Origin: a virus
Length of the DNA: 37,869 nucleotides
Strand: one strand, 5' to 3'
IMG/VR virus record: IMGVR_UViG_3300046367_000068
Location: 1-37,869 of that record
The notes below the pieces were generated by a model that worked only from the letters and a program-made list of their open reading frames with translations, was not told the DNA's origin and did no database searches. Below, one piece after another: positions 5,289 through 37,172 of the stretch (its first letter is position 1; the number at the start of each line of letters is the position of its first letter). The position numbers and the translations under genes were made by a program.

Positions 5289-6218
5289 ATGGCTATTTCA
5301 CGCGCACAACTGCTCAAAGAATTGCTGCCCGGCCTGAACGCTTTGTTCGGCATGGAGTACGCACGCTACGGCGAAGAGCACAAAGAAATCTACGAAACAG
5401 AGAAATCTGAGCGTAGCTTCGAAGAAGAAACCAAGCTGGCTGGCTTTGGTGCAGCACCTGTTAAGAACGAAGGCTCCGCCATCGCTTTTGACAATGCCCA
5501 AGAAGCGTTCACAGCTCGTTACAACCACGAGACCATCGCTCTCGGCTTCTCCATCACGGAAGAAGCAGTTGAAGACAACTTGTACGACAGCCTGTCTGCT
5601 CGTTACACCAAGTCTTTGGCTCGCGCCATGGCCTATACCAAGCAAGTGAAAGCTGCATCCGTCATCAACAACGGTTTCAGCGGCAGCTACTTGGGTGGTG
5701 ACGGTGTGTCATTGTTCGGTGTTAGCTCTGGCGGCTCACGCGTTGGTCACCCGTTGATTAACGGTTCTGTGAACTACAACAGCCCAACCACCGGTGTTGA
5801 CTTGAACGAAACCTCGTTGGAAAACGCTGTGATTCAGATCGCTGCGTGGACTGACGAACGTGGTCTGTTGATCGCCGCCAAGCCCGTCAAGATGGTCATC
5901 CCACCAGCTTTGATGTTCGTTGCTAAGCGTTTGTTGGACACCGAACTCCGCGTCGGTACTGCTGACAACGACATCAACGCGTTGAAGCAAATGGGCGCTA
6001 TCCCCGGCGGCTACACCGTCAACCACTTCTTGACCGACAGCAATGCTTGGTTCTTGACGACTGACGTGCCAAACGGCTTGAAGCACTTCGAGCGTTCCGC
6101 TTTGACCAACAGCATGGACGGTGACTTTGACACCGGCAACGTGCGCTACAAGGCCCGCGAGCGTTACAGCTTCGGCTGGTCTGACCCCCTCGGTATGTGG
6201 GGCTCTGCTGGCGCCTAA
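5289..6218 (+). CDS. Major capsid protein
   Basis: A 309-residue protein, ATG 5289 behind AAGGAG (5277-5282). It starts MAISRAQLLKELLPGLNALF and contains EEAVEDNLYDSLSARYTKSLA, which is split here as ITEEAVEDNLYD and SARYTKSLARAMAYTK. It ends with ERYSFGWSDPLGMWGSAGA. These segments match HK97-fold major capsid proteins of tailed phages as I know them: helical N-arm, E-loop region and a C-terminal strand with RYxxGWxDPxG. It forms the icosahedral shell. The gene is followed at once by a strong terminator, as expected for the most abundant product. No delta-domain precursor segment is evident, consistent with a separate scaffold gene. Confidence 0.9.
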   Translation: MAISRAQLLKELLPGLNALFGMEYARYGEEHKEIYETEKSERSFEEETKLAGFGAAPVKNEGSAIAFDNAQEAFTARYNHETIALGFSITEEAVEDNLYDSLSARYTKSLARAMAYTKQVKAASVINNGFSGSYLGGDGVSLFGVSSGGSRVGHPLINGSVNYNSPTTGVDLNETSLENAVIQIAAWTDERGLLIAAKPVKMVIPPALMFVAKRLLDTELRVGTADNDINALKQMGAIPGGYTVNHFLTDSNAWFLTTDVPNGLKHFERSALTNSMDGDFDTGNVRYKARERYSFGWSDPLGMWGSAGA

Positions 6219-6230
6219 TCGGCGACACGA

Positions 6231-6259
6231 GAAAAGGGGCTTCGGCCCCTTTTCTTTTA
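6231..6259 (+). terminator. Rho-independent terminator after the capsid gene
   Basis: A perfect 10-bp stem (6231-6240 with 6245-6254) closed by a UUCG tetraloop, followed by TTTTA at 6255-6259. It begins 12 bases after the capsid stop. It should end or reduce transcription from the head genes, giving capsid-heavy transcript ends. Its 14-base core GGGGCTTCGGCCCC is repeated exactly in the terminator at 6776. Confidence 0.9.
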
Positions 6260-6268
6260 TTTAAAACA

Positions 6269-6360
6269 GGTGTATATTCACCACATCCCGGGAACACCGG
6301 TGTATCTGACGGTCCCGGCCGACGACATGCAGACAGATACGCCCCACTTGCATGTAAGGA
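6269..6360 (+). promoter_or_regulatory. Structured leader with chained pseudoknots before the 6367 gene
   Basis: Three helices interleave. S1 pairs CCGGGA 6288-6293 with TCCCGG 6313-6318. S2 pairs GGTGTATCTG 6299-6308 with CAGATACGCC 6334-6343 (10 bp, one G-U). S3 pairs ACATGCA 6325-6331 with TGCATGT 6349-6355 (7 bp, perfect). The strand order S1, S2, S1', S3, S2', S3' makes two overlapping H-type pseudoknots. S3 ends at the base before the Shine-Dalgarno AAGGA (6356-6360), with ATG at 6367. A small hairpin GGTG/CACC (6269-6282) precedes them. Its loop TATATT could also be a -10 box, without a good -35. I infer a cis-acting translational or RNA-stability element. The pairings are seen; the function is not known. 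Confidence 0.6.
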
Positions 6361-6366
6361 AACATC

Positions 6367-6768
6367 ATGGCAAATACCACATTCAACGGCCCAGTACGGT
6401 CGCAAAATGGCTTCCAATCAATCACTGTGAACAGCACCACTGGTGCGGTCACCGTCAACTCCGCTTTTGATACCGGCGTTGTGTTGGGTACACAGGCTTT
6501 GTCCGGCGCTGGCGCTGTTGACATTACCAATGCTTTCACCGCACTTACAACCACTGGCTCAGCCCAAGCGTTGACTTTGGCCAACGGTTCTGCCGGCGAA
6601 GTCAAGATCATCACCCACGTGGTTGATGGCGGCTCGGCTGTGTTGACCCCCACCACAAAAATCGGTTTTTCGACCATCACGTTCACTGGCGTTGGCGAGT
6701 CTGCCATGTTGGTGTACACCGCTGCCGGTTGGGCAATCGTTGCATTGAACGGCGCTGTCGCAGCCTAA
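6367..6768 (+). CDS. Small beta-rich structural protein, likely virion surface
   Basis: A 133-residue Thr/Val/Ala/Gly-rich protein with very few charged residues, starting at ATG 6367 behind AAGGA. It begins MANTTFNGPVRSQNGF, an N-terminus I recognise from uncharacterised structural proteins next to phage capsid genes. The rest alternates short beta strands and ends TAAGWAIVALNG. It stands alone between two UUCG terminators and behind a structured leader, so its dose seems to be tuned separately from the capsid gene. A decoration or small fibre-like protein fits the composition. No enzymatic motif is visible and the function is inferred. Confidence 0.65.
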   Translation: MANTTFNGPVRSQNGFQSITVNSTTGAVTVNSAFDTGVVLGTQALSGAGAVDITNAFTALTTTGSAQALTLANGSAGEVKIITHVVDGGSAVLTPTTKIGFSTITFTGVGESAMLVYTAAGWAIVALNGAVAA

Positions 6769-6775
6769 TCAATCT

Positions 6776-6797
6776 CAGGGGCTTCGGCCCCAGTTTT
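6776..6797 (+). terminator. Rho-independent terminator, UUCG loop
   Basis: GGGGC 6778-6782 pairs with GCCCC 6787-6791 around a TTCG loop; TTTT follows at 6794-6797. It lies 8 bases after the 6367 gene stop and shortly before the Shine-Dalgarno AAAGGAG (6798-6804) of the next gene. The stem is shorter than the one at 6231 and probably gives only partial termination, since downstream genes have no obvious promoter. Confidence 0.75.
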
Positions 6798-10367: not shown

Positions 10368-11039
10368 ATGAGCACTCCCGTTGCCATCTACAAAATTGTC
10401 AATGCCTTAAACGGCAGGATGTACATCGGGCAGTCGGTAAACCCATCTTACCGAGCCAAACGACATTTTTGGAAAAACAGCGGTTGTGTAAAACTCCGCC
10501 GCGCAGTTGAAAAGTATGGGCGGGATAGCTTTAGTTTTTCCGTGCTTTGTTGGTGCGCCGATAAAGCAGACGCTAACGAAATCGAAGAGCTGTTGATTAC
10601 ACTGGGCGATACGCGGGTTAGTGGCTACAACATCACGCCGGGCGGGTTTGGTACAGGCGCTGGGGAAGACAATCCTTTCTTCGGTAAGTCGCACACTGCC
10701 GAGCTTAAAGCCAAACTAGCAGCCAAAAAACTTGGCAAACCAATGGCAGCTACCACACGGGAAAAGATTGCAAACGCAAACCGCAACCGTACAATGTCGG
10801 AAGCCACGAAAGATAAGCTACGCGCAAGGGAAAAATCGGAGTTGTGCAGTGAACGTACAGCAGCCGCAAACAAAGCCCGTGTGTGGAGTGAAGAATCAAA
10901 AGCAAAGCTAGTTGCGTACAACACAGGACGAAAGATGTCGGAAGAAACGAAAGCCAAAATTGCAGCCGCAAACAAAGCGCGTGTCTGGACGTCGGAGTCT
11001 AGGGCAAAGCTTGCCTTGTCTAGAACTAAGGTGGCCTAA
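10368..11039 (+). CDS. GIY-YIG homing endonuclease with NUMOD3 repeats
   Basis: A 223-residue protein. The N-terminal nuclease domain has IYKI (residues 7-10) and YIG (19-21), then conserved Arg/His near 29-33, and NEIEEL at 70-75 supplying the metal-binding Glu (E73). From about residue 107 on, helical NUMOD3-type DNA-binding repeats recur: GKSHTAELKAKLAAKKLGK, MSEATKDKLRA, WSEESKAKLVA, MSEETKAKIAAANKARVW, TSESRAKLALS. Such free-standing endonucleases cut homologous genomes lacking them and spread by repair. It sits with only 2 and 1 bases to its neighbours, within the virion array. The N-terminal half looks more A/T-rich than the neighbours, consistent with recent arrival. Target site unknown. 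Confidence 0.93.
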   Translation: MSTPVAIYKIVNALNGRMYIGQSVNPSYRAKRHFWKNSGCVKLRRAVEKYGRDSFSFSVLCWCADKADANEIEELLITLGDTRVSGYNITPGGFGTGAGEDNPFFGKSHTAELKAKLAAKKLGKPMAATTREKIANANRNRTMSEATKDKLRAREKSELCSERTAAANKARVWSEESKAKLVAYNTGRKMSEETKAKIAAANKARVWTSESRAKLALSRTKVA

Positions 11040-12180: not shown

Positions 12181-12759
12181 ATGTCTTTAGAAAAAGCAAA
12201 ATCCACAGACTTGGTTTCCGCCGGTCTCCAAGCCCGCACTGGCTCCAGCGAGCGTACAAAAGCTGGGGGTGTGTTCCACGTCCAATGCTTGGACAAAGAC
12301 GGTAACGTCAAGTGGGAAGAAACAACCCATAACCTCGTGGTGAACGAAGGTTTGCAGAGCATGAACACCCAGTATTTCAAGGGTAGCGCGTACACAGCTG
12401 CGTTCTACCTTGGATTGATTACCGGCCCGGGCTCAGGTACTTCTTACGCTGCTGGTGACACCTTGGCTTCACACGCTGGCTGGACTGAGTTCTCCAACTA
12501 CTCCGGCGCACGCAAGGCCGTGACTTTCGGTACGGCTACAACGGCTGACCCGTCGGTGATCGACAACTCTGCTTCGGTTTCTCAGTTCACCATTTCTGGT
12601 GGTGGGGGCACTGTGGCTGGCGCGTTCTTGTGTACGGTGTCTAGCGGCACTTCGGGCGTTTTGTTCTCCGAGGCCGACTTCCAGTCCCCCGGCGACCGCG
12701 TGGTTGTCGCTGGCGACACACTGAACGTCACTTACACATTCAGCTTAGACGCTGCCTAA
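12181..12759 (+). CDS. Virion structural protein, beta-rich
   Basis: A 192-residue protein from ATG 12181 behind AAGGAG (12169-12174); the upstream part of the frame is within the previous gene. It begins MSLEKAKSTDLVSAGLQART, then GGVFHVQCLDKDGNVKWEET, HNLVVNEGLQSM and YLGLITGPGSGTSYAAGD. The second half is Ser/Thr/Gly-rich beta structure ending DTLNVTYTFSLDAA. The NLVxNxGLxxM segment is familiar from uncharacterised tail-associated proteins. No enzyme motif. It closes the connector module before the fibre genes. Confidence 0.7.
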   Translation: MSLEKAKSTDLVSAGLQARTGSSERTKAGGVFHVQCLDKDGNVKWEETTHNLVVNEGLQSMNTQYFKGSAYTAAFYLGLITGPGSGTSYAAGDTLASHAGWTEFSNYSGARKAVTFGTATTADPSVIDNSASVSQFTISGGGGTVAGAFLCTVSSGTSGVLFSEADFQSPGDRVVVAGDTLNVTYTFSLDAA

Positions 12760-30466: not shown

Positions 30467-30560
30467 TTACTCGCTTCTGTGCGAGAATCCTTACACAGCG
30501 CCTCAGTCTTACCCGCTGGGGCGTTTGCACATTTATTGGGTTACTCACTGCTGATTGACT
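30459..30560 (+). promoter_or_regulatory. Leader of the giant gene: weak promoter candidate and two hairpins
   Basis: The 94-base gap (30467-30560) holds CTCGC/GCGAG (30470-30474, 30481-30485) and an 8-bp stem CGCCTCAG/CTGGGGCG (30499-30506, 30516-30523, one G-U) followed by TTT. A possible sigma70-type pair is TTGATT 30459-30464 and GAGAAT 30483-30488 (18-base spacer, poor -10). The second hairpin could be a weak terminator. No clear Shine-Dalgarno precedes ATG 30561, unlike most genes here. Confidence 0.35.
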
Positions 30561-33500
30561 ATGGCCAACTACCTGCCCCTCCCTGACGGTTCACGTTTAC
30601 GTATTCCAGACGGCATGTCCGAAAACGAAGCGATGCAGAAAGCACGTGTTAAGTTTCCTGACCTGTTCCCCAAACAAGGCGGCATGGCAGGGGCCTTCGG
30701 CAAAGGACTCGAGTCAACGCTCTCAGGCATGCAGACGGGCCTCGGCGCCCTCATGAACCCAGAAGAAGCGGCCCGTGCCGGCCAGCAGCGCGGCCAAGAC
30801 ATCAACAGTCGCTACGCCGAAGAAGTCAGCTTCGACAAAGTCCGTGAAGCCTACGACAAGAACGGCATCCTCTCCGCAGCAAAAGAAGCGCTAAGTCAAG
30901 TCCCCAAAGCAATCGCTGAGCAAGCACCCGGTATGGCCGCCACACTCGGCGGCGCGCGCCTTGGCGCCATGGCCGGTTCACTTGCAGGCCCCGCAGGCAC
31001 AGTCGTTGGTGGTGTGGCTGGTGCGTTGGCCCCGTCCCTCTTGCAGCAGTTCGGTGGCAACATTGAGCGCCAGCAAGCCGAAGGCGCCCCAATCAATCGT
31101 GGTAACGCGCTTGGTGCAGCAATCCCCCAAGCCGCGCTAGATGCCGCTGGTACCTTTATTCCTCTGGGTGGCAAGTTGGTGAGTCAGCTCACAGGCATCC
31201 CCATCAAGGGTCTGGCCAACAAGGGTGCGGCCAAGCTGGCCGAAGAATCTCTCCTCAAGACGTTGGCAAAAGGTACGGCCGTCGGCGCCTTGGCCGAAGT
31301 CCCCACTGAGATTGCCCAGCAGATGCTGGAGCGCGCGCAAGCCGGCCTGTCCTTAACCAGCCCAGACGCTCTGAAAGAGTACGGCGAGACCGCATACCAA
31401 GTTGGTTTGTTGGCGCCCATCGGCGCCGTCGGGCGCTTCTCGGAAAAGGGCGCAGCCCGTCAGCAAGTTGCGCAAGAGCAGGACGCCAAGGACTTGGCCG
31501 CCGCGCAGGCGGAGGAAGATCGCAAGAACCAGCCTGAGTATTTGCAGAAGCTGTCCGCTGACTTCACCGCTGCACGTTCACAGATGCAGGACCTCAACGA
31601 CCGCATTGACGCTGCCGCACCACCCAAGAAGCCCGGCAAGAACGCTAAGCCAGAAGCCATTCAGAAGTACAAAGCCGCGCGCGCAGCGTACACCCCTGCT
31701 CAGGAAGCTGAGTACAACGAAGCCAAGATGGCTAAGAACGACTTTCTCCAGAACACGTTCTCACCACTGCGTGAAGAATACAAACAGCGTCAGGCCCAGA
31801 TCAGCCAGATGGAGCAAGAGCGCATGGGCACCATGGAGCAGGAAGCTGCCCAGACCCAAGAGACGGCCGCAGCCCCAATCCCCAACGCTGACCCACAACA
31901 CAATGTCGTCACCCTCATGCAGCGTCACGACGCCATGGGCATCCAGCTGGACGAGCTGCAAACACAAGCCGCAGAAGCAGCGAAGGCAGGCGACACGGCC
32001 ACCATCTTGGCTTTGACTCCGCAGATCAACGCGCTCAAACAGCAGCAAGCCAGCGCGGCCGAGATCATCACACAGATGGGCGGCTCTACTGCCCCGACAA
32101 AAGAACTGGCCGCCGTTGCCGAGAAGCAGCTGGCCGATGCCCAAGCCAAGATGGCCGCGACACAGAAGGCGCTCATCACCGCCGCTGAGCAAGGCGATAC
32201 CGCCGCAACCGAGAAGTTGGCCAAGCAGTTGGACGCAGAGAAGCTGAACATCCAGCAGCTGCAAGAGAAGACAGCCAAGCAGATGCAGTTGCGCACAGTT
32301 GCTGAGACACCCGCCGGCGAGACCCCCGGCATGTTTGGCACCCAAGATAAACAAGACGACACCAAGGCCGCAGAAGTCTTGAAGGACGAAGCCGAGCGCG
32401 GTCTTTATGGTCCAGAAAGCAAGGCTGAGTCCGCCAAGCAAACGTTTGCCGAATCGGAAATTGGGCCGCGCGGTCTAGCCGAAACCACCACAAAAACAGC
32501 GGACGTTGACGCAGTCAACCAACCAAAGCTCAAAGAGCGTCTTGCCACGGCCAACACAGAACTTGCCGCCCTCGTGAAAGCGAAGGCCCCGCAGGAAGAA
32601 ATCTACGCCAAGACTGAGGAAGTTGCCAAGCTGGAGTCTCAGCTGCAACGTGCAACGGTTGAAGAAAAGACCAAAAAGGACAAGGACACGCTTGCCTTGT
32701 TCGGCAAAGAAAACCTCGTCAATGTGGCGTTGGGCAATCGCGATTTTGAGAACGGCCCCTACGTGCCACGGGACTTGGATGAGCAAGGCAAGGAGCGCGC
32801 GGAGCGTGAACGCGTCCTGCGTTTGTTGGAAGACCGCTTTGGTTTGGGTGGCGAAGACAAGATCACCAAAGGCCCGTTCAAAGGTGAGACCACGCGCAGC
32901 GTGCAGTCCACCCGCATGTATGAGCACCCCATGTTCAACGCGATCATGGCGAAGATTCAGCAGCACAAGGACAAGGTCGAGAAGAAGCAGCGCAACGCCA
33001 AGCAATCCTTGCTGGACGAGCTGTACGAGCAAGCCAACATCTACAACTACATCCACGAGCTGCAAGGCGGCAACAAGAAGTCCGGCCCGGCCGAGTCCCC
33101 GATCGCTGCCGTTGCTGACCAACTGGTGAACTTGGCGCCCCCTGCACAAATTGTGGCTGGCTTGGATAAAAAGACACCGCGCAATCTGCAACGCACCAAA
33201 GATGCAGCACTGGCCAAGTACGAAAAGGCGTTGGCCAAGATCGAGATGGAGCGCAATGCCATCGAGAAGTTGTACAAACAGTTGTACCAGACTGTTGTGA
33301 AAATCACCCCGCTTGAGAAGGTGGAGTCCGTACGCCAGACCAAACAAGACTTGTTGGATGCGCAGCCAAAGCCTGTCGTATCAAAGGCCGCCAAGGAAGT
33401 TAAGCGCATCAACGAAGGCAACGTGGCCAAAGAAGCGTCCGAGACGCAGACCATGCGTGACTTGGCCTACATGCTCGGCATGGACACAGATGTGTACGAA

Positions 33501-36500
33501 CGCGCCAAGAAGCAGCTGGTACAACGCGGCAAGAAGATTGCCGACCAGTACACCAAGGACTCCAACGAGTACCGCGAGTTCATGGACTTGGCCAAGCCTG
33601 ACCTGCGCAATATTGCTGAGCGCGAGGGTGCCAAGACTGAGGAGTACAAGGAAGCGCTGGTTGAGCAGACCGAGTCGCTGAAGAAGTCTTACCAGTCTGC
33701 TGGCAAACAGGAGATGAAGTCCAAGCGCGACAAGTCGCCTGTGATGCGCAAGCAGTCCGCAGCGCCCGATCGTTTTGTGACCGGCTCACCTGAGAGCAAG
33801 GCTCGCGCAGCAGAAAAGCAAGAACGCTACGTGCAGTCGCTGAACGACGCATACGAAGCCATCCAGTCCGAGAACGACGGCACCTACGGCGAAGGTATGT
33901 GGCGTACAGCGCCACGCACGCAGGGCATCAACTTGGTAGAAGCCAAGAAGACCATTGACGGTTTGAAGCTACCCAAAGGCATCAAGTTCGTCTACGCCGA
34001 GTCGCTGGACGATGCCCCGAAAGAGTTTTTCATGGAAGCTGCGGCCCAAGGCTTGAAGCACATGGACTTGCTCAACAAGAAGGGCGTGGTCTTGAAGGAC
34101 GGCACCGTGATCGTCATCGGCGCGCACCACGCCAACATCAAAGACCTCGAAGCTACGATCGCTCACGAGTTGATTGGCCATTACAGCGTTCAGGGTTTGA
34201 TTGGTCGCAAGGGCCTGATCGACATGTTGAAGACCATCGACGGCCAGCTAGGGGGTTTGCTCAAGCTCGCCGATGACCTAGGCGTTGGTATCCAAGTTCG
34301 CAACGCAATCGAAGAAGCCAAGGCTGGTGGTGCTGACGACCTCAACGCTCGCTTTGTGGGCCTGAACGAGATGCTCGCCTACACCGAAGAACAGCGTGTC
34401 ACCGAGGACTTCTTGGCCAAAGCCAAGCGCTTCATGAAAGAGATTGTCGGCGCCGTGCGCAAGGCGTTCCGTGACATGGGCCTCATCAACACGGCTGAGC
34501 TCAGCACGAGCGACATATACAAGCTGCTGCGCGACGCGCGCAAGCAATTCAACGAAGGCAGCACCGGCGCATACCGTGACCCCAACGGTGGCTTGATGTT
34601 CCGCAGCGGCGCCAAGAGCACGGCCAAGCACAGCATCACAGCCAAGCCCTCCACGCTGACCGACAAGATCAAGGCCAACTTTTTTGGTCTGGGTGCACGC
34701 CAGCAATTTGTTGATAGTTACGCGTCGATCGACGCAGCCATCCGTGCGGGCATGGACAAGAAGATGCTCACCTCCATGGAGGGCGAGCAGGCCATGTACT
34801 ACCTGCGCTTCACCGAGCAGCGTAGCCAATACGTCGGTCAGTTCGTGACGAACGGCCCCGTGTCGCTTGAGTCCCAGAAGACACCGCGCGGCACCGAGTA
34901 CGTGTTCAAGTCCAAGAAGGGCCCGACCTTGATGAAGGTCGCCGAGCTTGCCGGTAAGTCTGGTCTCGGCAACGAAGCCACCGTCGAGGACTACCTGACC
35001 TCATACCTTGTTGGCCAACGCGCCAACGCTGTGGGTTGGAGCAAGCTCGGCAAGAGCGAGAAGGAAGCTCGCGCTGCTTACAAAGAAGTTATGGATAAGC
35101 TGGCCGCCAGCCCCAAGGCCAAGGCCGCGTTCGAGGCCGCCGCCAAGGAATACAAGGCATACAACGATGGCCTCATCGACTTCTTGGCGCAGTCCGGCGC
35201 GATCAGCCGTGGCAAAGCCGCTGAGCTGAAGTCCAAGCCCTACGTGCCTTTCTACCGCGAGAAAGACGGCAACGTCGAGCTCGTAGTCGATGGTGAGTCC
35301 ATCCTGCGCATCGGCAACATCAAGAACCAACCACAGCTCAAGGAGTTGCTGGGTGGCGATGAGAAGGTCATGCCGCTCTACGAGAGCGCTATGCAGAACA
35401 CCGCCATGATTACCGACATGGCCTTGCGCAACATCAAGACCAAGAACACCGCGTATGCGTTGAAGAAGGTTGGCATCGTGAGCCGCGTCGGTGACGGCAA
35501 AGGCCCGGCTGACTCCAGCATCGTGCGCTTCTTCGAGCACGGCGAACCCAAGTATGCGGTCGTCGACAAAGACGCCTTCGGCATCCCCGCTGAGCTCGTT
35601 GTCAAGTCCATGGAGGGTATTGCCACCACCATCCCCGCCGTCGTGCGCTTGATGGGCTACCCAGCTGATTGGCTGCGCCAGTTCGTGACACGCAACCCAG
35701 CGTACGCTGTGCGTCAGACCATTCGTGACCCGTTGTCTGCATGGCTCACCACCGGTACAGACTCAATGCCTGTGCTCAGCTCGCTGAAAGAACTCAGCAA
35801 AATGGTGGGCGGCCGCAGCGCAGCGGAGACAAAGCTCATGGAGTCTGGTGCAATTAGCAGCAACGTGTTTACAGGAGATTCCAAAGACCTGAAGACCTTC
35901 CTGCGCGACATCTCTGCCGGCAAGTCTGGCTGGGAGAAAGCCATGGCCAAGCTCGATGCCTTCGCTTTGCAGGGCGACTCATCTACCCGCGCCGTGATCT
36001 ACAACGAAGCGATCAAGCAAGGCATGACCGAGATGCAGGCCCTGACACGCACTTTGGAGTCCATGAACTTCTCACGTCGCGGCTTGTCACCAAGCATGCA
36101 GGTGCTGTCTACGCTCATCCCTTTTTTCAACGCACAGATTCAAGGTCTGGACGTGCTGTACCGTGCGTTTACTGGCCAGATGCCGTTCGAGAAGCAGCTC
36201 CAAGTGCGCGAGAAGATGTTGAAGCGCGGCACCATGCTGGCCGTGGCCGCCGTTGCCTACGCCGCGCTCATGCAGGACGACGAAGCGTACAAGAACGCCA
36301 AGCCCGAGGAACGTTACGGCAACTTCTTCCTGAGCATCCCGGGCATCGACGAACCAATGCGTGTGCCCCTGCCGTTCGAATTGGGCTACATCTTCAAGGC
36401 GTTGCCCGAGGCCATCTACAACATGGCAGTCGGCGACGAGAAGGCCAGCAACGCCATGGCCGGTATCGGCAAACTGTTCGCTCAGTCCAACCCGTTCGGC

Positions 36501-37172
36501 CTGCCGCAAGCCATCAAGCCAGCGACCGAAGTCATCCTCGGCAAGTCGTTCTACTCAGGCGACATCGAGTCGGCCCGTGACAAGCAAGTGCTCCCAACCG
36601 AGCGCTACCGCGACAACACATCCGAGCTGAGCAAGATGATCGGCAGCGTCACAGGCGAAGTGGGCCTGAGCCCCGTCAAGCTGGACTACCTGATTCGCGG
36701 CTACTTCGGCAGCTTGGGCGTTGCGCTGGCTCAGATCGGCAACCCTGTTCTGGCCAAGACACCCGAGAAAGAAGCGGCCAAGCCAACTACCAAGGTCAGC
36801 CAGATGCCGATCATCGGTTCGCTGTTCCAACCCATCGAAGGCCGTGGCCCCGGGGACGAAGCGTACGAGCGAATGGAGGAGATCAAACAAGCCAAAGGCA
36901 CCTTCACACGCTTGGTCGAGCAAGGCAAAGGCGCAGAGGCCCGTGCGTTCGCTCAACAGTATTCGACAGAACTGGCCATGGCCAGCACATCAGGCGCCGT
37001 GTACAAGCGACTCGGCGAGCTGGCGAAGCAAGAGCGTGCGATCAAGGCCAGCGCCAACATGGACACACCGCAGAAAGACGAAGCACTCAAGCGCATCGCT
37101 GACGCGAAGATCAAGTTGGCTCGGATGTTGACTCAGGCTTCCGACCGCGCCGCTGAAACAAAACCCCAATGA
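30561..37172 (+). CDS. Giant polyvalent internal virion protein with HELIGH metallopeptidase motif
   Basis: A 2203-residue protein. ATG 30561 fits MANYLPLPDGSRLRIPDGMS, a common start of phage polyvalent proteins; TTG 30555 adds only two residues. Residues about 100-260 are Gly/Ala-rich and hydrophobic (ARLGAMAGSLAGPAGTVVGG), a possible membrane-penetrating part. About 300-720 is coiled coil. A metallopeptidase-like module has HELIGH (His1202, Glu1203, His1206) with Glu1270 in NEMLAYTEE as likely third ligand. Residues about 1690-1960 (YPADWLRQFVTRNPAYAVRQ, IPFFNAQIQGLDVLYRAF) match what I know as a large polyvalent protein-associated domain (LPD38-type). Such proteins are packaged and injected. 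Protease substrate unknown; peptidoglycan or host proteins are possible. Confidence 0.8.
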   Translation: MANYLPLPDGSRLRIPDGMSENEAMQKARVKFPDLFPKQGGMAGAFGKGLESTLSGMQTGLGALMNPEEAARAGQQRGQDINSRYAEEVSFDKVREAYDKNGILSAAKEALSQVPKAIAEQAPGMAATLGGARLGAMAGSLAGPAGTVVGGVAGALAPSLLQQFGGNIERQQAEGAPINRGNALGAAIPQAALDAAGTFIPLGGKLVSQLTGIPIKGLANKGAAKLAEESLLKTLAKGTAVGALAEVPTEIAQQMLERAQAGLSLTSPDALKEYGETAYQVGLLAPIGAVGRFSEKGAARQQVAQEQDAKDLAAAQAEEDRKNQPEYLQKLSADFTAARSQMQDLNDRIDAAAPPKKPGKNAKPEAIQKYKAARAAYTPAQEAEYNEAKMAKNDFLQNTFSPLREEYKQRQAQISQMEQERMGTMEQEAAQTQETAAAPIPNADPQHNVVTLMQRHDAMGIQLDELQTQAAEAAKAGDTATILALTPQINALKQQQASAAEIITQMGGSTAPTKELAAVAEKQLADAQAKMAATQKALITAAEQGDTAATEKLAKQLDAEKLNIQQLQEKTAKQMQLRTVAETPAGETPGMFGTQDKQDDTKAAEVLKDEAERGLYGPESKAESAKQTFAESEIGPRGLAETTTKTADVDAVNQPKLKERLATANTELAALVKAKAPQEEIYAKTEEVAKLESQLQRATVEEKTKKDKDTLALFGKENLVNVALGNRDFENGPYVPRDLDEQGKERAERERVLRLLEDRFGLGGEDKITKGPFKGETTRSVQSTRMYEHPMFNAIMAKIQQHKDKVEKKQRNAKQSLLDELYEQANIYNYIHELQGGNKKSGPAESPIAAVADQLVNLAPPAQIVAGLDKKTPRNLQRTKDAALAKYEKALAKIEMERNAIEKLYKQLYQTVVKITPLEKVESVRQTKQDLLDAQPKPVVSKAAKEVKRINEGNVAKEASETQTMRDLAYMLGMDTDVYERAKKQLVQRGKKIADQYTKDSNEYREFMDLAKPDLRNIAEREGAKTEEYKEALVEQTESLKKSYQSAGKQEMKSKRDKSPVMRKQSAAPDRFVTGSPESKARAAEKQERYVQSLNDAYEAIQSENDGTYGEGMWRTAPRTQGINLVEAKKTIDGLKLPKGIKFVYAESLDDAPKEFFMEAAAQGLKHMDLLNKKGVVLKDGTVIVIGAHHANIKDLEATIAHELIGHYSVQGLIGRKGLIDMLKTIDGQLGGLLKLADDLGVGIQVRNAIEEAKAGGADDLNARFVGLNEMLAYTEEQRVTEDFLAKAKRFMKEIVGAVRKAFRDMGLINTAELSTSDIYKLLRDARKQFNEGSTGAYRDPNGGLMFRSGAKSTAKHSITAKPSTLTDKIKANFFGLGARQQFVDSYASIDAAIRAGMDKKMLTSMEGEQAMYYLRFTEQRSQYVGQFVTNGPVSLESQKTPRGTEYVFKSKKGPTLMKVAELAGKSGLGNEATVEDYLTSYLVGQRANAVGWSKLGKSEKEARAAYKEVMDKLAASPKAKAAFEAAAKEYKAYNDGLIDFLAQSGAISRGKAAELKSKPYVPFYREKDGNVELVVDGESILRIGNIKNQPQLKELLGGDEKVMPLYESAMQNTAMITDMALRNIKTKNTAYALKKVGIVSRVGDGKGPADSSIVRFFEHGEPKYAVVDKDAFGIPAELVVKSMEGIATTIPAVVRLMGYPADWLRQFVTRNPAYAVRQTIRDPLSAWLTTGTDSMPVLSSLKELSKMVGGRSAAETKLMESGAISSNVFTGDSKDLKTFLRDISAGKSGWEKAMAKLDAFALQGDSSTRAVIYNEAIKQGMTEMQALTRTLESMNFSRRGLSPSMQVLSTLIPFFNAQIQGLDVLYRAFTGQMPFEKQLQVREKMLKRGTMLAVAAVAYAALMQDDEAYKNAKPEERYGNFFLSIPGIDEPMRVPLPFELGYIFKALPEAIYNMAVGDEKASNAMAGIGKLFAQSNPFGLPQAIKPATEVILGKSFYSGDIESARDKQVLPTERYRDNTSELSKMIGSVTGEVGLSPVKLDYLIRGYFGSLGVALAQIGNPVLAKTPEKEAAKPTTKVSQMPIIGSLFQPIEGRGPGDEAYERMEEIKQAKGTFTRLVEQGKGAEARAFAQQYSTELAMASTSGAVYKRLGELAKQERAIKASANMDTPQKDEALKRIADAKIKLARMLTQASDRAAETKPQ

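Follow-up and report, generated by a model that had tools for sequence, protein, structure and literature searches.

Interlocked pseudoknots in an aquatic phage mRNA leader: a probable translational operator of a capsid-decoration gene

A leader of interlocked pseudoknots lies directly 5' of the gene that follows the major capsid gene in the window, by which we mean the whole 37,869-nucleotide stretch of viral DNA analyzed (IMG/VR record IMGVR_UViG_3300046367_000068). Covariation among related sequences has shown the fold to be real, and sequence comparison further indicates that the leader is quite probably a cis-acting translational operator of the downstream gene, whose product appears to be a capsid-decoration protein. 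The long form present in the window, or a related leader, was found in hundreds of related aquatic phages. The features of the window are, in base-pair order:

5289-6218 (+): major capsid protein gene, Mu gpT-like (PF25209, PF10124, phrog_371)
6229-6256 (+): intrinsic terminator of the capsid transcript (12-pair stem, 4-nt loop, T tail)
6273-6278 (+): -10-like hexamer TATATT of a presumed leader promoter, with a predicted start at about 6285
6288-6293 (+): S1 5' arm, CCGGGA; arm sequence variable in relatives
6299-6308 (+): S2 5' arm, GGTGTATCTG; two-sided changes at all 7 inner pairs
6309 (+): unpaired A between S2 and S4, invariant in a MAFFT alignment of relatives and present in RF03012 too
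6310-6312 (+): S4 5' arm, CGG; pair types in relatives
6313-6318 (+): 6-nt loop of S4, which is the S1 3' arm TCCCGG; S1 swap control
6319-6321 (+): S4 3' arm, CCG; covariation in relatives
6322-6333 (+): junction AC-G-ACATGCA-GA, with A6322, C6323, G6332, and nearly A6333 conserved in alignments; its middle is the S3 5' arm (6325-6330)
6334-6343 (+): S2 3' arm, CAGATACGCC; covariation in relatives
6347-6349 (+): S5 5' arm, CTT; pair types and swap control
6350-6355 (+): 6-nt loop of S5, which is the S3 3' arm GCATGT; S3 swap control
6356-6360 (+): Shine-Dalgarno (SD) sequence AAGGA, of which AAG (6356-6358) is the S5 3' arm; sequence and S5 covariation
6367-6768 (+): gene for a 133-amino acid protein, probably a cement- or spike-like capsid decoration protein, judging from its position, the annotation in phage DSL-LC04, and a structure model

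A sequence-only reading had proposed three interleaved helices, and checking the sequence located each of them where it had been placed and interleaved as claimed: S1 (CCGGGA, 6288-6293, with TCCCGG, 6313-6318), S2 (6299-6308 with 6334-6343, including one G-U pair), and S3 (ACATGCA, 6325-6331, with TGCATGT, 6349-6355), the last base of which (6355) does adjoin the SD. Two further helices had been overlooked, S4 (6310-6312/6319-6321) and S5 (6347-6349/6356-6358); the seventh pair of S3 (6331/6349) competes with S5, which is itself only 3 bp long. S4 and S5 are one repeated design, a 3-bp hairpin whose entire 6-nt loop is docked on an upstream strand. In a search by topology, with no constraint on sequence, the leader scored 67 and was the top-scoring site of the whole 37.9 kb window, while the maximum in 2000 dinucleotide shuffles was 53.5 (0/2000 reached the observed score). 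No excess stability of the leader was found in a minimum free energy fold (z = 0.05), because crossing helices are not modeled there and the calculation is blind to this structure.

Viral contigs supplied homologues of both the 6367 protein and the capsid protein, and the leaders upstream were compared. Homologous leaders lacking compensatory changes had been named beforehand as the result that would speak against the fold, but the structure survived this comparison and is kept in most of them. Among 142 distinct long-class leaders, 35 of which are less than 80% alike, the helices are maintained while entire arms are exchanged. S1, for example, occurs as CCGGG/CCCGG, CTAGG/CCTAG, CTGGG/CCCAG, CCTAG/CTAGG, CCAAG/CTTGG, and others; S4 is found as CTG/CAG (68 leaders), CAG/CTG (54), CGG/CCG (10), and CCG/CGG (5), and S5 as CTT/AAG (33), GTG/CAC (26), CTC/GAG (25), GCG/CGC (5), GAG/CTC (1), and TGT/ACA (1). 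For representatives less than 80% alike, the best match of an arm within its own leader was compared with matches to other sequences: at least five Watson-Crick pairs were formed by 92% of own versus 19% of swapped S1 arms and by 82% versus 22% of S3 arms. In a swap control of S5, the helix was complete in 68% of own versus 15% of swapped pairs. Two-sided changes were detected in 9 of the 10 columns of S2 and S4 pairs, with a covariation score of 0.954 versus 0.214 for shuffled rows; the rows had been pre-selected for S2/S4 pairing and the A/AC/GA core, making 100% pairing and base invariance true by construction, but the diversity of pair types is not a product of that selection. The A, AC, and GA bases likewise show no or almost no variation when leaders of homologous genes are aligned with MAFFT, although the rows there had been chosen by topology score. 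S1 was not a filter, and yet it was present at 145 of the 148 sites passing the core filters (S4 paired, at least seven S2 pairs, and the A/AC/GA bases).

The sequence-only reading knew of no named RNA family with this topology. That is correct for the long topology, which no Rfam family recognizes (the window leader gave no RF03012 match at E values up to 10 and did not reach that family's gathering score of 49 bits), but its core is common to RF03012, Mu-gpT-DE, which occupies the same genomic place. RF03012 was the sole Rfam match among 16 diverse loci, at L069, where the alignment gives the same core; L167 and L413 match it as well. Both forms lie between the capsid and decoration genes, and both have the core S2-A-CNG hairpin CNG-AC...GA-S2, ending at the SD and start codon. 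The window leader likewise sits 3' of a Mu gpT-like capsid gene (PF10124), as RF03012 does, and has the RF03012-type core S2-A-S4...AC...GA-S2 directly 5' of the decoration gene. The long form is distinguished by S1, by S3/S5 lying at the SD, and by an S2 that is long and variable, whereas the short class is without S1, and RF03012 is typed in Rfam as "Gene; sRNA" and printed without a pseudoknot.

The RF03012 model ends at the start codon, and on extending it we found that the junction of short-class leaders pairs with the start codon and codon 2. A TRGCCA junction accompanies AUGGCU/G in 102/102 distinct sites, and CCC or ACCT variants accompany AUGGGU/A in 41/41. When the downstream proteins, trimmed of their first five residues, were arranged on a tree, the junction and codon 2 type switched nine times, at least four of the switches being forced by well-supported branches, although the tree was built by a quick method and gave long-branch warnings. 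An Ala codon 2 is never GCA in the short class; GCA is the commonest in the long class. Five leaders (L301, L307, L345, L363, and L383) combine S1, S2, and S4 of the long form with the GCCA/AUGGC pairing of the short form, and the two forms were thus treated as one superfamily; these intermediates gave no RF03012 match at E values up to 0.1. In the literature searched, this leader family figures only as RF03012, in a methods paper. For RF03012, additional covarying pairs are mentioned in a methods paper, with no description in the passage concerned (PMC7657543), and the start-codon pairing may already have been seen computationally. The short form was already catalogued, as RF03012; its start-codon pairing was found in this analysis, and the long form lies outside Rfam.

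In 142/142 long-class leaders, the 3' arm of S3 either ends 0-5 nt short of the SD or shares bases with the SD or the start codon, and the 3' strand of S5 is often part of the SD. Three arrangements, an S5/SD stem, S3 on the SD, and S3 on the start codon, thus put the ribosome-binding site at or in a pseudoknot. Together with the start-codon pairing of the short class, this means that every variant gates or abuts the ribosome-binding site, although occlusion is not uniform: in the GTG/CAC subclass of S5 the SD lies 3' of S5 and not within it. Selection for gating of the ribosome-binding site would predict such arrangements, which would not be expected from a pure 5' shield, small RNA, or ribozyme. 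Neither synonymous constraint nor an RNA signal was found inside the long-class coding sequence, and the element consequently ends at the ribosome-binding site. Operators that gate this site have a conserved pseudoknot 5' of the gene they control, abutting or including the SD or start codon, and the window leader shares both features. A translational operator is therefore the best supported of the three roles that the sequence-only reading had offered, with a pseudoknot at the SD or start codon in the long class and a covarying start codon in the short class.

As a mechanism, we propose that a separate decoration-protein mRNA would start just 3' of the capsid terminator and that its entire 5' untranslated region adopts the interlocked structure shown by covariation. 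In that structure, hairpin S4 sits within S2 and its loop pairs with the 5' end (S1), whereas hairpin S5 lies beyond S2 and its loop pairs with the S2 junction (S3). S3 and S5 abut or include the SD; in the variants, S3 pairs with the SD itself or with the start codon and codon 2. Ribosome access would be set by folding and unfolding of this last pseudoknot, most likely held or released by a factor recognizing the shared S2/S4 core (A, AC, and GA), and such regulation would provide decoration protein at the right level for capsid assembly. Candidates for this putative factor are a virion protein and the 30S subunit itself.

Phage and bacterial precedents exist. The leader of T4 gene 32 contains one simple H-type pseudoknot, in a region 67 nt upstream of the start, with gp32 as effector. 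It is likewise a pseudoknot 5' of a ribosome-binding site in a phage mRNA leader, used in translational control (PMC3014915), but it is single and simple, whereas the window leader has interlocked pseudoknots reaching the SD or start codon. In the E. coli rpsO (S15) and alpha-operon (S4) leaders the pseudoknot includes the ribosome-binding site, as here, and 30S access is controlled by entrapment (PMC10931766); those genes, in contrast, encode ribosomal proteins with known effectors, and the RNAs have other sequences and topologies. By analogy, the leader may work like these three operators, a functional kind defined by a cognate effector; for the leader, no effector or second binding site was found. 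A 2010 review named just one viral pseudoknot for translational autoregulation (PMC3014915).

The 6367 gene sits after the capsid gene, and its counterpart in phage DSL-LC04, in the same position and likewise behind this leader, is annotated "cement protein". The model of the 6367 protein is beta-rich (pLDDT 87); its Foldseek matches were phage tailspike stems (E = 6e-4) and, weakly, the Pa223 capsid spike (E = 0.044), and no solved relative was found by sequence for either the capsid or the decoration protein. Decoration proteins behind the leader, which fall into three BLAST clusters, keep their N-terminus and swap their C-terminal domain; these sequences suggest a conserved capsid anchor with exchangeable heads. 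In the decoration genes of L388 and L071-L080, the first 16-36 residues match the window protein and the remainder is a different domain. The same leader thus precedes proteins with unrelated C-terminal domains, which counts against recognition by that domain. It is conceivable, though we consider it rather unlikely, that the leader is an assembly sensor, with the S2/S4 core as the binding site for free capsid protein or for the decoration protein's conserved N-terminal arm, and with binding opening or locking the pseudoknot at the SD. Were this true, a large share of aquatic phages would couple synthesis of decoration protein to the state of head assembly.

A version of translational control with no trigger has a slightly better, but still minor, chance of being correct: a ligand-free pseudoknot would fix the initiation rate or aid ribosome docking, matching decoration to capsid protein. 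The controlled genes differing in their C-terminal domain would accord with it, as would the small number of conserved unpaired core bases (about five, which is low for a ligand site) and the strength of S3 (-6.3 kcal/mol), which is near that of SD:anti-SD pairing (-5.9). However, a far simpler sequence can set a rate, and recognition is suggested by the fact that very different phages have kept four or five interlocked helices with an invariant core.

The leader appears from its flanking sequences to be the 5' end of a separate decoration-protein mRNA. A terminator similar to that at 6229-6256 lies 5' of the leader in most relatives. A -10-like hexamer was present in 86/139 long-class leaders, 7-9 nt 5' of S1 in 65 of these, and in the short class one lies 8-9 nt 5' of S2 in 64/96; no full promoter was called 5' of the window leader, where the -35 is weak. 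In both classes a terminator and then a -10-like hexamer commonly come first, the hexamer lying 7-9 nt from the first helix, and the element therefore resembles the complete 5' untranslated region of its own mRNA. The sequence-only reading had set the 6367 gene between two terminators, of which the upstream one stands, but the downstream hairpin (6778-6791) has only four T and was not called. An mRNA beginning at the structure in both classes would also suit a shield against 5'-sensing nucleases at its extreme 5' end. As the primary role this is improbable, since variation is most tightly constrained at the SD and start codon, where a shield needs no such constraint, and S1 is absent from the short class; an added role of this kind is possible for the proposed operator.

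Among the matches listed for loci retrieved by RNA pattern alone, a capsid gene lies upstream in 129/129 short and 45/48 long forms. In the three exceptions (L301, L307, and L345) the leader and gene directly follow the portal gene, and in the two with enough flank (L301 and L345) the order is portal, leader plus gene, scaffold-like gene, and capsid, which places leader and gene about 3.4 kb upstream of the capsid gene. The leader stays with the decoration gene when away from the capsid gene, and the RNA therefore belongs to the decoration gene. At 10 of 50 capsid loci, 730-1011 nt separate the capsid stop from the leader, and those inspected have inserted ORFs in this gap. By eye, ORFs with a GIY-YIG-like N-terminus follow the capsid gene in L090, L095, L100, L104, L136, L148, and others, lying before the leader where one follows, and a similar ORF is at 10368-11039 of the window.

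A self-cleaving ribozyme, the remaining suggestion of the sequence-only reading, or a metabolite riboswitch is very unlikely: some of these do contain multiple pseudoknots, but the leader matched no Rfam ribozyme or riboswitch at E values up to 10, its conserved core is very small, and its gene context is structural. A free small RNA from the capsid 3' untranslated region, as the Rfam type line and the location 3' of capsid genes would have it, is scarcely credible for an element whose model ends on the start codon, whose junction covaries with codon 2, and which moves with the decoration gene.

Pattern scans of viral contigs gave at least 120 matches for each of the long and short forms, and the family is larger than the number counted here. 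The long form was found in only one contig in a scan of genome contigs and thus appears to be phage-borne. Searching phage records at the DNA level, with either the window or a leader consensus, gave no match, and relatives had to be reached through protein searches. Cultured carriers of the long form are Pelagibacter phages HTVC023P and HTVC027P, with 023Pt_psg01 and DSL-LC04 carrying it also; the environmental genome ct7L0027 bears the leader as well, and the short form is carried by the cultured Roseobacter phages CRP-901 and CRP-902. Caulobacter phage RW, Alcaligenes phage QDWS535, and Planktothrix phage Pag-Yong1 have a related capsid and no clear leader of this type. With both forms in cultured phages, tuning of a decoration protein by an RNA fold is directly testable, and a catalogued "sRNA" becomes one end of a large family of interlocked leaders, probably for translation control, in aquatic phages. 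Two minor observations concern other loci. The phage contig L301, which carries the leader, also has a glutamine riboswitch (RF01739) at 12397-12446 (+), scoring 48.5 bits against a gathering score of 35. In the window, a single 2205-amino acid ORF (30555-37172) lies downstream of the structural genes and possibly encodes an internal or ejected virion protein.
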